Virus record (IMG/VR): IMGVR_UViG_3300022932_000003
Coordinates: 1 to 53,052 of that record
From: a virus
Direction: 5' to 3' (one strand)
DNA: 53,052 nucleotides
The position numbers and the translations under genes were made by a program. The first letter of the stretch is position 1, and the number at the start of each line of letters is the position of its first letter. A model generated the notes under the pieces. The model had not been told where the DNA came from, made no database searches, and saw only the letters and a program-made list of their open reading frames with translations. Of the stretch, positions 5,731-24,936 are shown piece by piece.

Positions 5731-6558
5731 TTATTTTAAAATGGTTAATAATTCTTCTAAGGTGATTTTTGATTTCAAAATATAATCCGAAACCAAAATA
5801 CTTCTGCATTTATTTTGAACTGCAATCGGTTTTTTTCCGTTTTGATATGTTTTTTCGAACGCAGATATTTTAAATTTAAAGTCTAAAGGATTTTGTTTGA
5901 TGATTCTTTTGCGTTCTGCAGGAATATAAACAGCCATTTCTTTTTTAAACAATTCAACTTTTTCATCATTCGAAATTTCTATCTTTTTAAGATCTTCCAA
6001 TTGTTTGAAAATATACCAGGCATCAGAACAAAAACCTTTTTCAATTATTTCATTGAAAACCATTTCAATAAATTCAGTTCTTATTTTTTGCTTTTCTGAT
6101 TGTGATTTTTCTATTGGAGCATTTAATAAATTTTGTCTTTTAAGTAAAAAAGGTTCAACTGCTGCGTTTCTATATTCGATGTATGCATTCAAAATTTCAC
6201 CAACGGCAACGCAATCAACTAATCTGAAAACTTTTACATCAACAAATTTTTTAGAAACATAAAGCTTAAACGCTTCTTTTATCTCCGATGGTGTAAGATT
6301 TGAAAAATGAGAATTTATAATATCAGCAATCAAAATCATTTGCCTGTCAATTTCATCCTGTTCATCCTGAGTAACAATTTTAATATTCAAAATATCTAAC
6401 ATGAAATCTAAACAACTTTCTTTTTCGTTAGCCGTTACGGTTTTCCATTTCGGTTCGTTTTCTTTCAGCGTCAGCAAGTAGGGTTTGTTCTGCTCTAGCA
6501 ATGCTAAATCTTGCGCGGGTTTTTGTATTGCCGGTAAATTGTTGTTCTGATTTTCCAT
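5731..6558 (-). CDS. Hypothetical replication-associated protein
   Basis: 275-aa helical protein. Its N-terminal tail (MENQNNNLPAIQKP) is Gln/Asn-rich and likely disordered, followed by a mainly alpha-helical body. It directly follows the replication-initiator-like gene and overlaps it by 131 nt, with both frames looking like normal protein. An alternative start at the Met near residue 53 (6402) would remove the overlap. The position suggests a helicase-loader or initiator partner, but no DnaC/DnaB motif is visible, so the role is open. Confidence 0.7.
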   Translation of the reverse strand: MENQNNNLPAIQKPAQDLALLEQNKPYLLTLKENEPKWKTVTANEKESCLDFMLDILNIKIVTQDEQDEIDRQMILIADIINSHFSNLTPSEIKEAFKLYVSKKFVDVKVFRLVDCVAVGEILNAYIEYRNAAVEPFLLKRQNLLNAPIEKSQSEKQKIRTEFIEMVFNEIIEKGFCSDAWYIFKQLEDLKKIEISNDEKVELFKKEMAVYIPAERKRIIKQNPLDFKFKISAFEKTYQNGKKPIAVQNKCRSILVSDYILKSKITLEELLTILK

Positions 6559-7426
6559 TTGATTTGTGTTTTTGCATTATTAATTTTGAAATCTGTTTTC
6601 TTAAAGTTTTTGTGCAAAGAATATTTGGCTTCCAAAATTCACCCTCTAAACTATTTAAGAAATTATAAGCTTCTTTGAACTGTTCCTGTGTTACCTGATC
6701 TTTTTCAAACATCAAACGAATAGGATCAACATAATTTTTATATTTTGCGTTTTCCTGATCACTAAAAGGCGAATCTTTTTCTTTTAAATTTTTAATGAAA
6801 AGTTTTTGAAACCAAACCGCTGTTTTAAAATATTTTTTTTCATTTTCAGAACAATTGATATTATAATTTTTAAATGAAAGAATATTTTCGTCGGAAATTT
6901 TTATTTCCGATAAAAAAGAAATATTAAGTTTCTTTATAATATCTTCTCTTTTCTCTTCTTTATCTAATCTTATCTTATCTGCGATGTTTTGCGATCCTGT
7001 TGCGATCGGGGTGCGATCATCTACCGATTGCTTTGCGACTGATTTAGAAAGTTCAATTGCCTTTTCCAAAGATATTTTTTTAGAAACAAAATCATCATAA
7101 ATTTCTTTATGCCAACGCTTTAAGTTTCCAATTATGCCACTATTACTTTTATCTTTAGAATCTTCTTTTATCTCAAACATTTGTTCATCTAAAAAAGAAA
7201 TATAAACCCGATTATGATCAAGACTGATTATTTTTTTTGATTTTAAAATATCAAAATGATCTTGATCAATTTCAATTACTGCATCTTCTATTGTCATTTC
7301 GCATCCTTTGGACCAATACAGCGAACATAAACGAATAAACCTTGCCTGAGTAATTTCGCCGCATCTTTGTATTTTACCCATCATCCAAGCTGATGGATTA
7401 AATTTAAACCAGGGAATATTTTCCAT
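6428..7426 (-). CDS. Replication initiator / replisome organizer-like protein
   Basis: 332-aa protein. The N-terminus (WFKFNPSAWMMGKIQRC, then GEITQARFIRLCSLYW) resembles the winged-helix N-terminal domain (Lin1244/DUF4373-like) of phage replication initiators. That part is followed by a charged linker (IRLDKEEKREDI) and a second helical domain near residues 225-275. The C-terminal tail is Arg/Glu-rich. I start it at the ATG 7424-7426; a TTG at 7432 is less likely. No ATPase motif is seen. It probably binds the origin and recruits the host helicase, since the phage has no primase or polymerase of its own. Confidence 0.65.
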   Translation of the reverse strand: MENIPWFKFNPSAWMMGKIQRCGEITQARFIRLCSLYWSKGCEMTIEDAVIEIDQDHFDILKSKKIISLDHNRVYISFLDEQMFEIKEDSKDKSNSGIIGNLKRWHKEIYDDFVSKKISLEKAIELSKSVAKQSVDDRTPIATGSQNIADKIRLDKEEKREDIIKKLNISFLSEIKISDENILSFKNYNINCSENEKKYFKTAVWFQKLFIKNLKEKDSPFSDQENAKYKNYVDPIRLMFEKDQVTQEQFKEAYNFLNSLEGEFWKPNILCTKTLRKQISKLIMQKHKSNGKSEQQFTGNTKTRARFSIARAEQTLLADAERKRTEMENRNG

Positions 7427-7428
7427 AA

Positions 7429-7797
7429 TCAAGTTTTATAAGTTTCAATAAGCCTATTTAAAGCCAAAAGTTTTTTTGATAGATAATCACGTTGTTTGAT
7501 TAATGATTCATAAAACGCGTCGATTTCGGGTTCATTTGGCTTTTCAATATCTTTTTCCGGATCCATTTCGAAAACAATTTCATTTTTAGGTTTTTCGGGC
7601 TCAATATACCCAAAAGGCATTTTATGAAAAACGGCAAAAGTGTTGATCAAACAATAAACCTCGTTATCATCTTCATCATAAGGATAAATACCCCTTTCTT
7701 TTGCTTTTTTGACAACATAAGCTTTGGGTTTATTTCCGTATTCATTTACTAGGCGCCTGAGTAATTCACGCCTTAATGCTGTTGTTTTAGTTTCCAT
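7429..7797 (-). CDS. Hypothetical protein
   Basis: 122-aa protein with a basic N-terminal helix pair (TTALRRELLRRLVNEYG, then KAYVVKKAKERGIYPYD), an acidic Pro-rich linker, and a C-terminal coiled coil (IKQRDYLSKKLLALNRLIE). Unrecognised. It lies immediately upstream of the initiator-like gene with a stop/start gap of about 2 nt, so it may be a replication accessory factor. Confidence 0.75.
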   Translation of the reverse strand: METKTTALRRELLRRLVNEYGNKPKAYVVKKAKERGIYPYDEDDNEVYCLINTFAVFHKMPFGYIEPEKPKNEIVFEMDPEKDIEKPNEPEIDAFYESLIKQRDYLSKKLLALNRLIETYKT

Positions 7798-7799
7798 TG

Positions 7800-7991
7800 T
7801 TAAGTAATTTTAATTGAATTTGAAACATTTGGTGTAATATGGATACTAGAATCAGCAGAGCCATAAACTTTTATAATTTCAAGGTTTTTAAATTTATCTA
7901 CTGAAATTCTAAATTCTGTATCATCATCAACAATTACTGTAATATGACGCGCCTGAAGAATTATTTCTGAATTATCGTGCTTATATTCCAT
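7800..7991 (-). CDS. Hypothetical small protein, first gene behind structured leader
   Basis: 63-aa protein, beta-rich by appearance (ARHITVIVDDDTEFRISV), unrecognised. It is the first gene after promoter P2 and follows a roughly 125-nt RNA leader with two hairpins and complementary loops, so its translation is the most likely target of any leader-based control. It is 2 nt from the next gene. Confidence 0.75.
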   Translation of the reverse strand: MEYKHDNSEIILQARHITVIVDDDTEFRISVDKFKNLEIIKVYGSADSSIHITPNVSNSIKIT

Positions 7992-8120
7992 AATAAAAAG
8001 TATTAAATAGCAAAATCCTATCAGTTTGGCAAAGATGTGAGACGTGCCGCCCTGATAGGACTTGTATAATATTTTCCGTTATGTTACTGTAGTTTGGTAT
8101 TGCGTCTCACTTCAATACAG
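7992..8120 (-). ncRNA. Structured 5' leader A with kissing-loop/pseudoknot
   Basis: The transcript from promoter P2 should begin near 8119. Hairpin 1 pairs 8113-8118 with 8097-8102 (GTATTG/CAATAC), and its loop contains GTGAGACG (on the plus strand, CGTCTCAC at 8103-8110). Hairpin 2 pairs 8052-8059 with 8017-8024 (CCTATCAG/CTGATAGG, 8 bp, plus an inner GGC/GCC), and its loop carries CGTCTCAC (8037-8044), the exact 8-nt complement of loop 1. The order 1-2-1'-2' makes a pseudoknot or kissing complex. The hairpin base is about 25 nt before the start codon at 7991. No known riboswitch class is recognised. Confidence 0.72.
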
Positions 8121-8123
8121 TAG

Positions 8124-8183
8124 CAAAAATACACATTTATTTCAATGTACAAACAATTTAAGTTAATTTATAATGATTTTAAA
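8124..8183 (-). promoter_or_regulatory. Promoter P2 with 17-bp palindrome
   Basis: The palindrome TTTATAATGATTTTAAA is at 8167-8183, touching the stop codon of the upstream gene (8184). The -7 box TATTTTTG (minus strand) is at 8124-8131, exactly 35 bp away. A TTTG lies 18 bp upstream of the -7 box, so both elements of the Bacteroidetes consensus are present. It drives the leader A operon. Confidence 0.78.
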
Positions 8184-9217: not shown

Positions 9218-10393
9218 TTATTTAATTAATGGAACATTTGTTAATTGTTTGCCATTATTCCAAATAGAAAATAGCCCTTTTTTAACCTCTTTGATGATCA
9301 TTGTTTCAATTTTACCAAAGAAATTGATATTACCTCCTAAATCTATAATCCAACCTTCTTTTTTAGTTCCATCAGGATAAGTAAAAATCCTCATTACACG
9401 GCCAACAATTTGATAATACAATGCTAATGACATTGTTGAACGGGCAATTAAAACAGATTCTAATCCAGGAAAATCAAATCCGGTTGTTAAAACTCCGACA
9501 TTAACTAAACATTTTATCCTACCTTTTTTAAAATCCATCAATATACGTTCTCGATCTTTTGTCTTAGTTTCACCTGTTAAAATTACCGCACCTGAAATGT
9601 TTCTAGTGACAATTGTGGCTTCTTCAATCATAGCACAAAAAATCAATATATTATTTCTTTTAGCAAGTATCTTTTTAGCATATCTAACGATGTGGCCAGG
9701 CATATCTATACTTTTATATAATCTGTTTAAACTCGCTGTTGTAAAGTCTGTTCCTGAGCTATTAACTTCTAATTTAGAACGGTCAACAACATCAAAAGAA
9801 TAATATTGTAATTTAGCCAAATAACCCGCATCAAAAAGGACAGAGTTTTGAACGAAATATAAAACATCATGAAAGATTTTAGGGCGTGTTCTTGTGATAA
9901 ATTTTAGTTGAGCCCCATAAGAATCATTTGAAAGCCTATAAGGTGTAGCGGTCAAACCTAAAACTTTTGCATTTGAAAAATAACTAATCAATTTTTCATA
10001 CATGCCGCCTTTAGCATTTACTAAATGGCATTCATCAATTAAAATATTTTCGGTTCCTTCAAACAAATAAAGTTTTTCTATAATACTACCAATCGTACAA
10101 AATGTGATTTTACCAATTCTTTTTTCTCCAATAGATGCCGAATAAATATTAGCATAACCGCCGCTTTTTATAAATTTTTCAAAGTTCTGTTCTAAAATTT
10201 CCTTTGATGGCTGAAGTACTATTGTGTTTCCTTGAACGCCATTCAATATTTTTGCAATTACAACCGATTTTCCGGATCCTGTTGGCAAAATTAATATTGC
10301 ATTCTTTCTAGTTTTGGTCTTTTGTTTTGATTGGAAGTAATTTATACCAGACTGAATCGCATCAGTCTGGTATTGTCTGTCTTGAAAAACCAT
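9218..10393 (-). CDS. SF2 DEAD/DEAH-box helicase
   Basis: 391-aa superfamily-2 DNA/RNA helicase. Motifs in order: Q-like QYQTDAI, Walker A LPTGSGKS (residues 36-43), Walker B DECH (120-123), motif III TATP (148-151), and motif VI QIVGRVMR (328-335) with its arginine fingers. The size and layout resemble phage UvsW/RadD-like helicases that remodel replication and recombination forks. The start codon of this gene overlaps the stop of the upstream gene by 1 nt (TAATG). The ATPase residues are all intact. Confidence 0.9.
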   Translation of the reverse strand: MVFQDRQYQTDAIQSGINYFQSKQKTKTRKNAILILPTGSGKSVVIAKILNGVQGNTIVLQPSKEILEQNFEKFIKSGGYANIYSASIGEKRIGKITFCTIGSIIEKLYLFEGTENILIDECHLVNAKGGMYEKLISYFSNAKVLGLTATPYRLSNDSYGAQLKFITRTRPKIFHDVLYFVQNSVLFDAGYLAKLQYYSFDVVDRSKLEVNSSGTDFTTASLNRLYKSIDMPGHIVRYAKKILAKRNNILIFCAMIEEATIVTRNISGAVILTGETKTKDRERILMDFKKGRIKCLVNVGVLTTGFDFPGLESVLIARSTMSLALYYQIVGRVMRIFTYPDGTKKEGWIIDLGGNINFFGKIETMIIKEVKKGLFSIWNNGKQLTNVPLIK

Positions 10394-11001
10394 TAATCTT
10401 CTATTTTACCGCCTTCCAAATCCTGAGCATCCTCTTCTTCAAAAGAATCAATCATTGAAAGCTGCTCTAGTTTTGGCGCTGATTTACCATTCATATAGGC
10501 TTCGACTTCATTCAAAGCAATACGCAGCCTTTCGTTTAATTCTTCAATGTACAAATAAGTACCATCAAGTTTAATTTTAGGCAAAGGATAACTTACAACT
10601 CCATTTATTAATGACTTACGTCCACTCAAAACAACTGATCTGTTTTCGTCGAATCCTGTAATCTTAAAAGATGTTACTGTGTAACGAACTAAATCGGGGT
10701 GCTCTTCTAATTTTGCAATCGGCGTTTGATTGTTTACATCAAGATCATTTTTGAAATAATCATCAATATGCATGAAGAAAATATCAAGTTCCGAAAATGC
10801 ATTGTTTAGATCATCATGCACCAAATGAACGCCTTTTCTCGAAAGTTCGTCACCTCTTGTTTTTCCTGTTAGCAGTTCGTAAGAATAGGTACATTGATGA
10901 TCTTTTAGCGTTGCGCCTTTGATTTCAATATCTCTTTGAACTTCTGAAGTTTCTAATGCATTTAAAAATTTATCTGCATCAATTGTAATGGATTTTCCCA
11001 T
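10393..11001 (-). CDS. Hypothetical protein, possible single-strand-binding-like
   Basis: 202-aa protein starting MGKSITIDADKFLNALE. The body is beta-rich (VRYTVTSFKITGFDENRSVVLSG...). The C-terminus contains EQLSMI, a weak clamp-motif look-alike, followed by an acidic tail (SFEEEDAQDLEGG) reminiscent of SSB-type tails. Location next to a helicase supports a DNA-metabolism role, but I do not recognise the family. It follows structured RNA B by 44 nt. Confidence 0.7.
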   Translation of the reverse strand: MGKSITIDADKFLNALETSEVQRDIEIKGATLKDHQCTYSYELLTGKTRGDELSRKGVHLVHDDLNNAFSELDIFFMHIDDYFKNDLDVNNQTPIAKLEEHPDLVRYTVTSFKITGFDENRSVVLSGRKSLINGVVSYPLPKIKLDGTYLYIEELNERLRIALNEVEAYMNGKSAPKLEQLSMIDSFEEEDAQDLEGGKIED

Positions 11002-11039: not shown

Positions 11040-11143
11040 AGTAGAAATTCCCTAAAGGGCTATTGTCGGATAGCTGATCTTTAGGGAATTCTGATATGTC
11101 TTACATTGTGATTAATCCGACAATAAACCACTAGACAAATATA
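11040..11143 (-). ncRNA. Structured RNA leader B with complementary loops and its own -7 box
   Basis: A minus-strand TATATTTG box is at 11136-11143; no good -33 was found. The RNA that would start near 11131 first shows TATTGTCGGA (11116-11125), within a weak hairpin GTGGTT/AATCAC. Next comes a 12-bp perfect hairpin (11079-11090 with 11046-11057, AATTCCCTAAAG/CTTTAGGGAATT) whose loop holds TCCGACAATA (11061-11070), the exact 10-nt complement. The layout parallels leader A: a small hairpin, a linker, a long hairpin, and loop-to-loop pairing. It precedes the gene starting at 11001 by 44 nt. Confidence 0.68.
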
Positions 11144-23214: not shown

Positions 23215-23430
23215 ATGATAGTATTTTTAATAATCGGTTTAGGGTTTTGGCTGTTTGGTTATGTTGGTTACAAAATAGCTATAGGCATTTTTGATATGTT
23301 TTTCCCACGTGAAAAGAAATCAACTTATACTTTTATTGATAACTCAGTTCATCACCATAAGCATGAGCATAAAAATATTCATATCATCGACGAACAAACA
23401 AAAGAAAATATTTTAAACAATTTAAATTAA
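23215..23430 (+). CDS. Small membrane protein with His-rich segment
   Basis: 71-aa protein with an N-terminal transmembrane helix (MIVFLIIGLGFWLFGYVGY) and a His-rich stretch (SVHHHKHEHKNIHI) before a charged tail. Similar short proteins occur in flavobacterial prophages. First gene of the only plus-strand operon. Function unknown; a membrane-directed host-takeover role is possible. Confidence 0.75.
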   Translation: MIVFLIIGLGFWLFGYVGYKIAIGIFDMFFPREKKSTYTFIDNSVHHHKHEHKNIHIIDEQTKENILNNLN

Positions 23431-23693
23431 TGATTATGGGATTCAAAGGAACAAAAGGATTTTGGAAAATAGGAGTATTAGGAAGCGTTCAAAACGAAAG
23501 AGGCGAATTTATTTGCGAATCAGAAAAGAACAAAGCAACAGAAGAAGAAAATAATGCAAATAACTTACTTATTTCTTGTGCTCCCGAAATGCTTCAACAA
23601 TTGATCGATATAAGAGATTGGATAGATAAAGATATTAACGTTTCTGAATATAGAACACAAATTGATGAACTAATCAAAAAAGCAACATCATGA
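23430..23693 (+). CDS. Hypothetical protein
   Basis: 87-aa protein, MIMGFKGTKGFWKIGVLG at the start, Glu/Asn-rich middle, helical C-terminus (EMLQQLIDIRDWIDKD). It overlaps the preceding stop (TAATG). Reminiscent of small phage proteins that carry an N-terminal beta hairpin of unknown role. Confidence 0.72.
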   Translation: MIMGFKGTKGFWKIGVLGSVQNERGEFICESEKNKATEEENNANNLLISCAPEMLQQLIDIRDWIDKDINVSEYRTQIDELIKKATS

Positions 23694-23941
23694 AGAAAGA
23701 GGATTTTAGAATAAAAGAATACGATGATCGATTCGTTATTGAAAAACGAGTAAGAGAACCTAAATTGGTAATTCTTTGTTTCATCTTAACCGTACGCGAA
23801 AAATGGATTAGTTATGATGATAATGTAAAATTTCAAGACAGGCTTATAAATCCGTTTATTAAAGGCGGTTATGATTCCCTTGAATCAGCCAAAGCAAGAC
23901 TTGAAAAAATATTAGAAGAACCTAAATATTATTATTTATAA
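23690..23941 (+). CDS. Hypothetical protein
   Basis: 83-aa protein beginning MKKEDFRIKEYDDRFVIE, with KWISYDDNVKFQDR and a C-terminal helix. Unrecognised. It overlaps the previous gene by 4 nt (ATGA). Confidence 0.72.
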   Translation: MKKEDFRIKEYDDRFVIEKRVREPKLVILCFILTVREKWISYDDNVKFQDRLINPFIKGGYDSLESAKARLEKILEEPKYYYL

Positions 23942-23943
23942 TT

Positions 23944-24222
23944 ATGGAAACAAACGAAATATTCCCGAACGATAGAAAAAGATGGCGTAATCAAAGGCAT
24001 ATTTATGCTGCTTCTCAGAAAAGCTATATTGAATTTGCAGAAATAAAATTTCTAACAGATTCTTTTAATAGTCTACCAATCGAAAAACGAAAACAACTTT
24101 TATCTTTTAGCATGATTGATCCATTTGATGATAAACAACCGGAATCAGAAAGTGAAGCTGAATATAGAGAAGTATTAAGGAATAAGAATTATATTGAATT
24201 TAACGCTGAAATAATAATTTAA
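23944..24222 (+). CDS. Hypothetical protein
   Basis: 92-aa charged helical protein (METNEIFPNDRKRWRNQ at the start). Unrecognised; second half is acidic (ESESEAEYREVLRNKN). Same plus-strand operon. Confidence 0.72.
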   Translation: METNEIFPNDRKRWRNQRHIYAASQKSYIEFAEIKFLTDSFNSLPIEKRKQLLSFSMIDPFDDKQPESESEAEYREVLRNKNYIEFNAEIII

Positions 24223-24223
24223 T

Positions 24224-24409
24224 ATGACCTTATTTAGCGACCCAAAAGAAATAAATCCAGGTGATGCTGTTTATTTTGAATACGATGATAAAATTGCCGT
24301 TGGCAAATGCATTGGTTTGCCCGATGGATTAATCGAAGTTGATTACACAACACAAGGAAGTACCGAAACAAAAATCGATAGATTCCGAAAGGGATTTTGG
24401 AAAAAATAA
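24224..24409 (+). CDS. Hypothetical small beta-rich protein
   Basis: 61-aa protein (INPGDAVYFEYDDKIAVG then IEVDYTTQGSTETKI), likely a small SH3-like barrel by its strand pattern, though this is only a visual impression. Belongs to the plus-strand operon. Confidence 0.7.
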   Translation: MTLFSDPKEINPGDAVYFEYDDKIAVGKCIGLPDGLIEVDYTTQGSTETKIDRFRKGFWKK

Positions 24410-24414
24410 AAGTT

Positions 24415-24702
24415 ATGAGGGAATTAGAAGATTTTGAAATTGAAGTGACAATTATTACGGCATTATCAAAAGATGATATTTTAAATCTTGAAAATGTCTG
24501 TGGCCGGCAATTAGATACAATGGAATTATTGAAAATTGCAAAGCTTAATTTTAGCCCTGTAGGTTTGTCAGTATTTTTATATACAATTATAGATATGAAA
24601 AATTATCAAACAGAAACATATCCCAGTCTTATGGGTAATGAAAAAGTTTTTGCAGAAAATAAAGAGTTTCTAAACGGAAAAGGTAAAACATTTGAAATGT
24701 AA
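24415..24702 (+). CDS. Hypothetical protein
   Basis: 95-aa protein from the ATG at 24415 (MRELEDFEIEVTIITALSK). A TTG 18 nt upstream would overlap the previous gene. Unrecognised. Confidence 0.68.
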   Translation: MRELEDFEIEVTIITALSKDDILNLENVCGRQLDTMELLKIAKLNFSPVGLSVFLYTIIDMKNYQTETYPSLMGNEKVFAENKEFLNGKGKTFEM

Positions 24703-24705
24703 ATT

Positions 24706-24936
24706 ATGAAAGTATCTAAAATTGAAATCGATCGAATAAAACAGGGCTGTAATTGTGAATTTCATCAAGGAAGATCACGAAAATATAAAGTTTCTGAATG
24801 TAAAGCATGTTTACATAAACAAGGAAAAAGTTTTATAAGGAGGCAAAAAGAATATGTTTTACGAGAAATGGAATTGGCATTTCAAAAACAAAAAGAATCA
24901 GAATCTTTTCAAGAACAATTATTAAAAGCGTTTTAA
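24706..24936 (+). CDS. Cys/His small protein with in-frame extension after stop
   Basis: 76-aa basic protein with a possible metal site (CNCEFH at residues 15-20 and CKACLH at 33-38). It stops with TAA at 24934-24936. The same frame then continues for 29 sense codons (24937-25026), encoding EEEKPKETIKLNWFQKIF and a basic end, before a second TAA inside the terminator stem. This looks like a C-terminal tail cut off by a recent stop, or a readthrough extension. Confidence 0.65.
   Translation: MKVSKIEIDRIKQGCNCEFHQGRSRKYKVSECKACLHKQGKSFIRRQKEYVLREMELAFQKQKESESFQEQLLKAF

Follow-up and report, generated by a model that had tools for sequence, protein, structure and literature searches.

Predicted kissing-loop 5' leader RNAs in phages of Bacteroidota, mostly of Flavobacterium

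Intrinsic terminator attenuators and riboswitch expression platforms are 5' leaders in which a hairpin and a U-rich tract precede the start codon. Plasmid kissing RNAs such as ColE1 RNAI/RNAII have hairpin loops, about 7 nt long, that pair fully, and the letters diversify while complementarity is kept. The EAR (epsC) RNA of the Bacillales is known for processive antitermination. It is structured, is predicted to contain a pseudoknot and lies in a long operon (PMC2864571). The put RNA of coliphage HK022 is a phage-encoded nascent RNA of about 70 nt with two stem-loops that needs no protein factor, and putL sits just behind an early promoter (PMC9378689).

The leaders described here have an arrangement of their own. 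ColE1-type kissing joins two RNAs, whereas here both loops lie in one RNA and would pair in cis; the two loops share one strand and one promoter, with no antisense Bacteroidota-type promoter nearby, which is not the layout of an antisense pair. Attenuators and riboswitch platforms have the same hairpin and U-rich tract, but here no antiterminator hairpin is evident, the kissing contact would be the control and Rfam gave no match. The EAR RNA belongs to another phylum and has another sequence, again with no Rfam match here. HK022 put, with two stem-loops behind a promoter, is the closest working analogue. Its copies share sequence, whereas leaders within one phage differ in loops and stems and have in common the promoter, an A/U linker and a U tract; its description (PMC9378689) is without loop-loop pairing, whereas the present leaders have paired loops with a sequence private to each. 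The leaders fall among phage leader RNAs, a known kind, with room left for a new class. In the literature searched, outside which most subscription papers lie, no paper was found describing this leader element and none connected kissing loops to phages of Flavobacterium or Bacteroidetes; the paper reporting the isolation of the Baltic phages named below (PMC7077304) makes no mention of promoters, terminators or RNA.

The window, which is the whole stretch of DNA analysed (53,052 nt), is a 53 kb siphophage contig from an IMG/VR record with terminase, portal, capsid and tape measure genes. The genome is mostly minus-strand, with a cluster of small plus-strand ORFs at 23215-24936. The features of the first leader, Leader A, with its hairpins HP1 and HP2, are as follows.

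8131 to 7992, minus strand: Leader A
8150..8153, minus strand: -33 box TTTG of the Bacteroidota-type promoter of Leader A (pattern scan)
8124..8131, minus strand: -7 box TATTTTTG of Leader A (pattern scan)
8097..8118, minus strand: HP1, 6 bp with a 10-nt loop AAGTGAGACG (covariation)
8118-8113 / 8102-8097, minus strand: HP1 arms GTATTG / CAATAC
8103..8110, minus strand: loop 1 kissing segment GTGAGACG, pairing with 8037-8044
8066..8078, minus strand: A/U-rich linker GGAAAATATTATA, kept among family members (alignment)
8013..8063, minus strand: HP2, whole (covariation)
8052-8063 / 8013-8024, minus strand: HP2 lower stem, 12 bp
8059-8052 / 8024-8017, minus strand: 8-bp core of the HP2 lower stem, CCTATCAG / CTGATAGG, extendable to 12 bp
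8048-8045 / 8031-8028, minus strand: HP2 upper stem GGCA/TGCC, 4 bp, exposing CGTCTCAC
8037..8044, minus strand: loop 2 kissing segment CGTCTCAC
8000..8016, minus strand: U-rich tract directly 3' of HP2, terminator-like
7800..7991, minus strand: first gene behind Leader A, 63 aa (ORF list)
6428..7432, minus strand: DnaD-like helicase loader / replication initiation gene downstream of Leader A (PHROG 2514, E 4e-10)

The first-pass annotation had reported two hairpins with an 8-nt complementarity between their loops, and every element that it described was located on the minus strand where it had been placed. The loop-loop match is perfect over 8 nt, and each strand of the window has a single copy of each 8-mer. 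The promoter was found by a pattern scan as TTTG-N18-TATTTTTG, and the outer strands of HP2 are AAGTCCTATCAG ... CTGATAGGATTT. When Leader A RNA was folded alone, its stability was above that of shuffled sequences (z = -3.4; 1 of 200 shuffles was as good). The 63-aa gene, with its ATG at 7991, has no Pfam or PHROG match, and its homologue stands behind the same leader in locus L006. A search of Rfam 15 (including riboswitches and Bacteroidota motifs such as Flavo-1) gave nothing above the gathering threshold in the window and 11 loci, one of the searches admitting E-values up to 1, which agrees with the first reading that no known riboswitch is matched. A regulatory role of Leader A, as proposed in that reading, is plausible.

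Protein searches around Leader A found only one near relative, a contig of 53,640 bases in which the 199-nt promoter and leader are retained at 96% while the genes flanking the leader on each side are replaced or diverged. Among named phages, blastn of Leader A gave Flavobacterium phages of the Baltic Sea (73.6%). Pattern scans of IMG/VR with loop 1 alone or loop 2 alone gave about 30 further records, and in the AT-rich matches, when read through, one loop was always accompanied by its partner loop at the expected place, the exceptions being L036 and L048, the halves of a single contig that the locus end divides. Six partnerless matches (L022, L028, L030, L035, L041 and L045) are without the architecture and were set aside as chance matches. 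In L027, L029 and L043 the loop order is swapped, with CGTCTCAC in HP1 and GTGAGACG in HP2. The start of transcription at HP1, as the first-pass annotation had predicted, is one that we infer from the box TANNTTTG, which nearly every homologue keeps a few nt ahead of HP1 (exceptions L018 and L023). Neither the family A loops nor the phage helicase gave a match in 84,980 genomes of bacteria and archaea, so prophages in that set showed no exact family A leader.

Among 23 leaders of family A, HP1, the HP2 lower stem and the HP2 upper stem all covary, and 99.3% of cells are paired; the eight loop-loop pairs are invariant in this set because the loops formed part of the search pattern. The decisive variants came to light without use of their loop letters: they were located by overall similarity or by a neighbouring protein and then read, snusmum6-1 via its helicase and morran9-1 and FCV-3 via similarity. 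The snusmum6-1 leader region is identical in mumin and mymlan phages and 92% identical to hemulen and filifjonk. The loops are GTGAGACG/CGTCTCAC in hemulen, GTGGAACG/CGTTCCAC in mumin and snusmum, GTGAGAAG/CTTCTCAC in morran (morran9-1) and GTAGAGAG/CTCTCTAC in FCV-3 and its near-identical F. columnare phage relatives. Phage FCOV-F13 (sister species FCL2) has at a similar site a leader with CATCCAC/GTGGATG, and the two sister species of F. columnare phages carry one code or the other.

With the snusmum6-1, morran9-1 and FCV-3 leaders added (26 sequences), 99.6% of cells are paired over the whole structure and both stems covary strongly, which was the check that the first-pass annotation had proposed. 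Changes on both sides were counted in 18 of 29 pairs, compared with 6.7 in shuffles, none of 500 shuffles matched the observed covariation, and sliding the register lowered pairing to 31-41%. By element, HP1 has 100% of cells paired and 2 pairs altered on both sides, the HP2 lower stem is changed on both sides in 8 of 11 counted pairs, and the upper stem in 3 of 4. The kissing helix has 5 of 8 pairs changed on both sides, none changed on one side and none broken, with 100% of cells pairing. Loss of loop complementarity among homologous leaders had been named as the finding that would speak against the proposed contact; complementarity is instead kept even where the loop letters change, as expected of a cis kissing-loop interaction, and the leaders of cultured phages, which alter both loops together, are natural compensatory variants. 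G-U pairs in the stems suit a minus-strand RNA, and the polarity is consistent, with the promoter directly upstream of HP1 and the U tract 3' of HP2. The kissing-loop reading is strongly backed by these compensatory changes, the swapped-loop leaders and the loop codes described below (about 30 in all), and we regard the kissing structure itself as almost certain.

A family A covariance model gave further weak matches within the same records. Several of these, on reading, are leaders built in the same way whose loops are unrelated in sequence yet once more complement each other; many others were dropped as the reverse strand of true leaders or as coding DNA. Descriptor scans found 51 non-redundant matches in 1.54 Mb of phage DNA, compared with 5 in Markov DNA of the same total length. 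A loop-blind scan (promoter, HP1, HP2, T tract and ATG) gave 61 candidates, of which 35 have their own loops complementary over at least 7 nt; the same match was seen in 1.5% of mismatched loop pairs and in 0 of 32 from Markov DNA. One phage may hold 2 to 5 leaders with different codes. Across 16 records with 39 leaders, no record had the same code twice (shuffled mean 3.7 repeats, P = 0.002), a result that is only suggestive of private codes because each locus has its own ancestry. When loci were chosen by the helicase gene only, related helicase genes were found behind leaders of differing code (GTTGCAG, GATCTCA, GGGCAT, CGTCTAC and GCTTCTCAC).

In the window, a descriptor of HP1, HP2 and the loop match gave two matches with a promoter, Leader A and Leader B, and 10 Markov copies of one strand gave one match with a promoter and T tract. 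The features of Leader B are as follows.

11045..11131, minus strand: Leader B (descriptor scan; the same leader occurs in L065)
11136..11143, minus strand: -7 box TATATTTG of Leader B (descriptor scan)
10393..11001, minus strand: first gene behind Leader B, 202 aa (ORF list)
9218-10393: DNA helicase, after the 202-aa gene

The HP1 loop TATTGTCGGAT and the HP2 loop ATCCGACAATA of Leader B form 11 loop-loop pairs, and its HP2 of 12-13 bp is followed by a U-rich tail.

Leaders are borne by many cultured phages, of Muminvirus, of Lillamyvirus, and of Ficleduovirus, the last being phages of Flavobacterium columnare. Bacteroides phage BS-TP2 has a single candidate leader, AAGTTGCGG/CCGCAACTT (L130 11175-11276), probably a kissing leader, and it is followed by an unannotated plus-strand ATG beside a repressor gene. 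As weak negatives, the descriptor scan found no perfect-promoter leader in a credible context in Nonlabens P12024L, Cellulophaga phi46:1 and phi17:1, lotta8-1 or FPSV-S1, a match with a promoter in lotta8-1 falling in coding DNA; nor did the descriptor find a leader in a similar stretch of Tenacibaculum PTm1. Comparative reading of these loci shows Leader A to be a member of a class of predicted 5' leader RNAs that occur in phages of Bacteroidota, for the most part Flavobacterium phages, and in which selection has evidently kept complementarity and not a particular sequence. Many Flavobacterium phage transcripts appear to begin with two hairpins whose loops would pair with each other, and this points to an undescribed, widely used element of phage gene control.

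Behind the leaders lie replication genes (DnaD-like proteins, primases and SF2 helicases) as well as homing endonucleases that stand alone and have NUMOD4/HNH or GIY-YIG domains. The NUMOD4 endonuclease gp037 of hemulen6-1 has its own promoter and a GTCGTCG leader, and this unit (L124 6740-7305) fills a gap of about 620 nt; the two genes flanking the gap have apparent counterparts that are annotated 10 nt apart in filifjonk9-1, where the corresponding site is without the NUMOD4 unit (L014 4576-4587). It looks like an insertion of about 620 nt, from which such leaders seem to travel with mobile genes. Another GTCGTCG leader (L044 200-273) seemingly has its endonuclease gene missing, with only a 43-aa ORF 70 nt later, and is perhaps a remnant after gene loss. 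The annotated start of the snusmum6-1 helicase gp033 falls inside HP2 of its leader (L125 9791), the ATG after the U tract being the more likely start. In FCV-3 the upstream annotated ORF stops right where the leader starts (L133 2874-2877), so that translation of a read-through transcript could interfere with folding of HP1. A second small conserved motif (for example AATAGTTTATCCGTATCTTAAAACGGTTATTATTATG and ATAGTTGTAGGTAATCTTTAAACCTTAAATATTATG) lies between HP2 and the start codon in the 'MAKFELKF/MANVRLKF' family (L009, L013, L014, L015, L023, L029 and L046), and its arms CCG/CGG and AGGT/ACCT show apparent covariation.

HP2 is a stable, covarying hairpin with a U-rich tract directly after it, as in an intrinsic terminator, and in the family the tails after HP2 are 64% T against a background of 31%. 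A simple terminator scan (loops of 3-8 nt) did not call HP2, in which an internal loop parts the lower and upper stems and a compact loop of 3-8 nt is absent; the U tract is frequently interrupted (TTTTGCTTTTT), and with its large compound loop HP2 may therefore be a weak terminator. The explanation that we favour, and hold tentatively on these sequence features, is that the leader controls read-through of transcription at HP2. The RNA is predicted to begin at HP1 or a few nt before it, and the apical loops of HP1 and HP2 would pair in a kissing complex of 7-11 bp. HP2 would serve as an intrinsic terminator or pause hairpin, with its U-rich tract before the first codon. HP1, being made first, would capture loop 2 as it leaves the polymerase, while the U tract is being copied, and this capture could hinder or reshape the folding of HP2, so that the kissing contact would decide read-through by RNA polymerase. 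In this way the leader would set the amount of transcript for a replication operon or a homing endonuclease, and private codes would prevent cross-pairing among the leaders that share a cell. Read-through control is favoured because loop 2 would exit the polymerase at about the time that the U tract is made, and because the U tract stays attached to HP2 even in the 'MAKFELKF' / 'MANVRLKF' group, where the ATG lies 42-51 nt after HP2 and both HP2 and the U tract are unchanged. Against it, a terminator ahead of essential genes needs a release signal, of which none is known, and the start codon, often 8-23 nt after HP2, also fits control of translation.

In that alternative, which we consider unlikely, the kissing complex upstream of the start codon would recruit or space the ribosome or insulate the start region. 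Bacteroidota generally start translation without depending on Shine-Dalgarno pairing, and a structured leader could stand in for it. Besides the 8-23 nt spacing in most leaders, this reading has in its favour that the leaders stand at the head of each unit, before its first gene, homing endonuclease genes among them; the more distant ATG of the 'MAKFELKF' / 'MANVRLKF' group, with the small motif in between, argues against it. Quite unlikely is a compact 5'-terminal structure that shields phage transcripts from decay dependent on the 5' end. Loops that need only pair could drift freely in their letters, which accords with selection on pairing only, with the predicted 5'-terminal place of HP1 in almost every leader and with the unrelated genes served; however, a single 5' hairpin is usually enough for protection, and the conserved U-rich tract after HP2 and the long lower stem would be left unexplained. 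A folded leader that binds the elongating RNA polymerase and makes it resist downstream terminators and pauses, as HK022 putL does, has the same position directly behind the promoter and the same number of hairpins in its favour (PMC9378689), but several leaders precede homing endonuclease units that look short and would offer processive antitermination little to work on, and put is described with copies similar in sequence and with an RNA triplex, in a text without kissing or pseudoknot (PMC9378689); we judge it improbable.

The possession of a promoter and a terminator-like end would also suit a short RNA of about 105 nt ending at HP2, whose loops, since they could pair between molecules too, would regulate another RNA by kissing. 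The search near Leader A for an antisense promoter of the Bacteroidota type was negative, and since the codes of one phage differ from each other, the only partner in sight for the loops is the molecule itself; such a trans-acting role is highly improbable. Least credible of all is an element acting as DNA, in which the inverted repeat of the loops would be a protein operator or part of an origin and the RNA structure incidental. The place upstream of a replication initiation gene would suit it, but the stems covary as RNA and their G-U pairs fit the RNA strand, the codes of the loops vary widely between copies, and several copies occur per genome, also ahead of homing endonucleases. Beyond read-through control at single leaders, it is possible, if rather doubtful, that the leaders constitute a general, gene-independent device, in which orthogonal kissing-loop pairs, one per transcription unit, switch a terminator-like hairpin and mobile homing endonuclease genes carry it ready-made.

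Cis-acting phage leader RNAs are already known, but no description was found of a class with dozens of leaders of one architecture, each with its own complementary loop pair. Many cultured phages carry the leaders, which makes them testable at once, and the natural variants are a ready compensatory-mutation series. The class would provide a natural library of intramolecular kissing loops, and would give a handle on how Bacteroidota phages control their replication genes and homing endonucleases.
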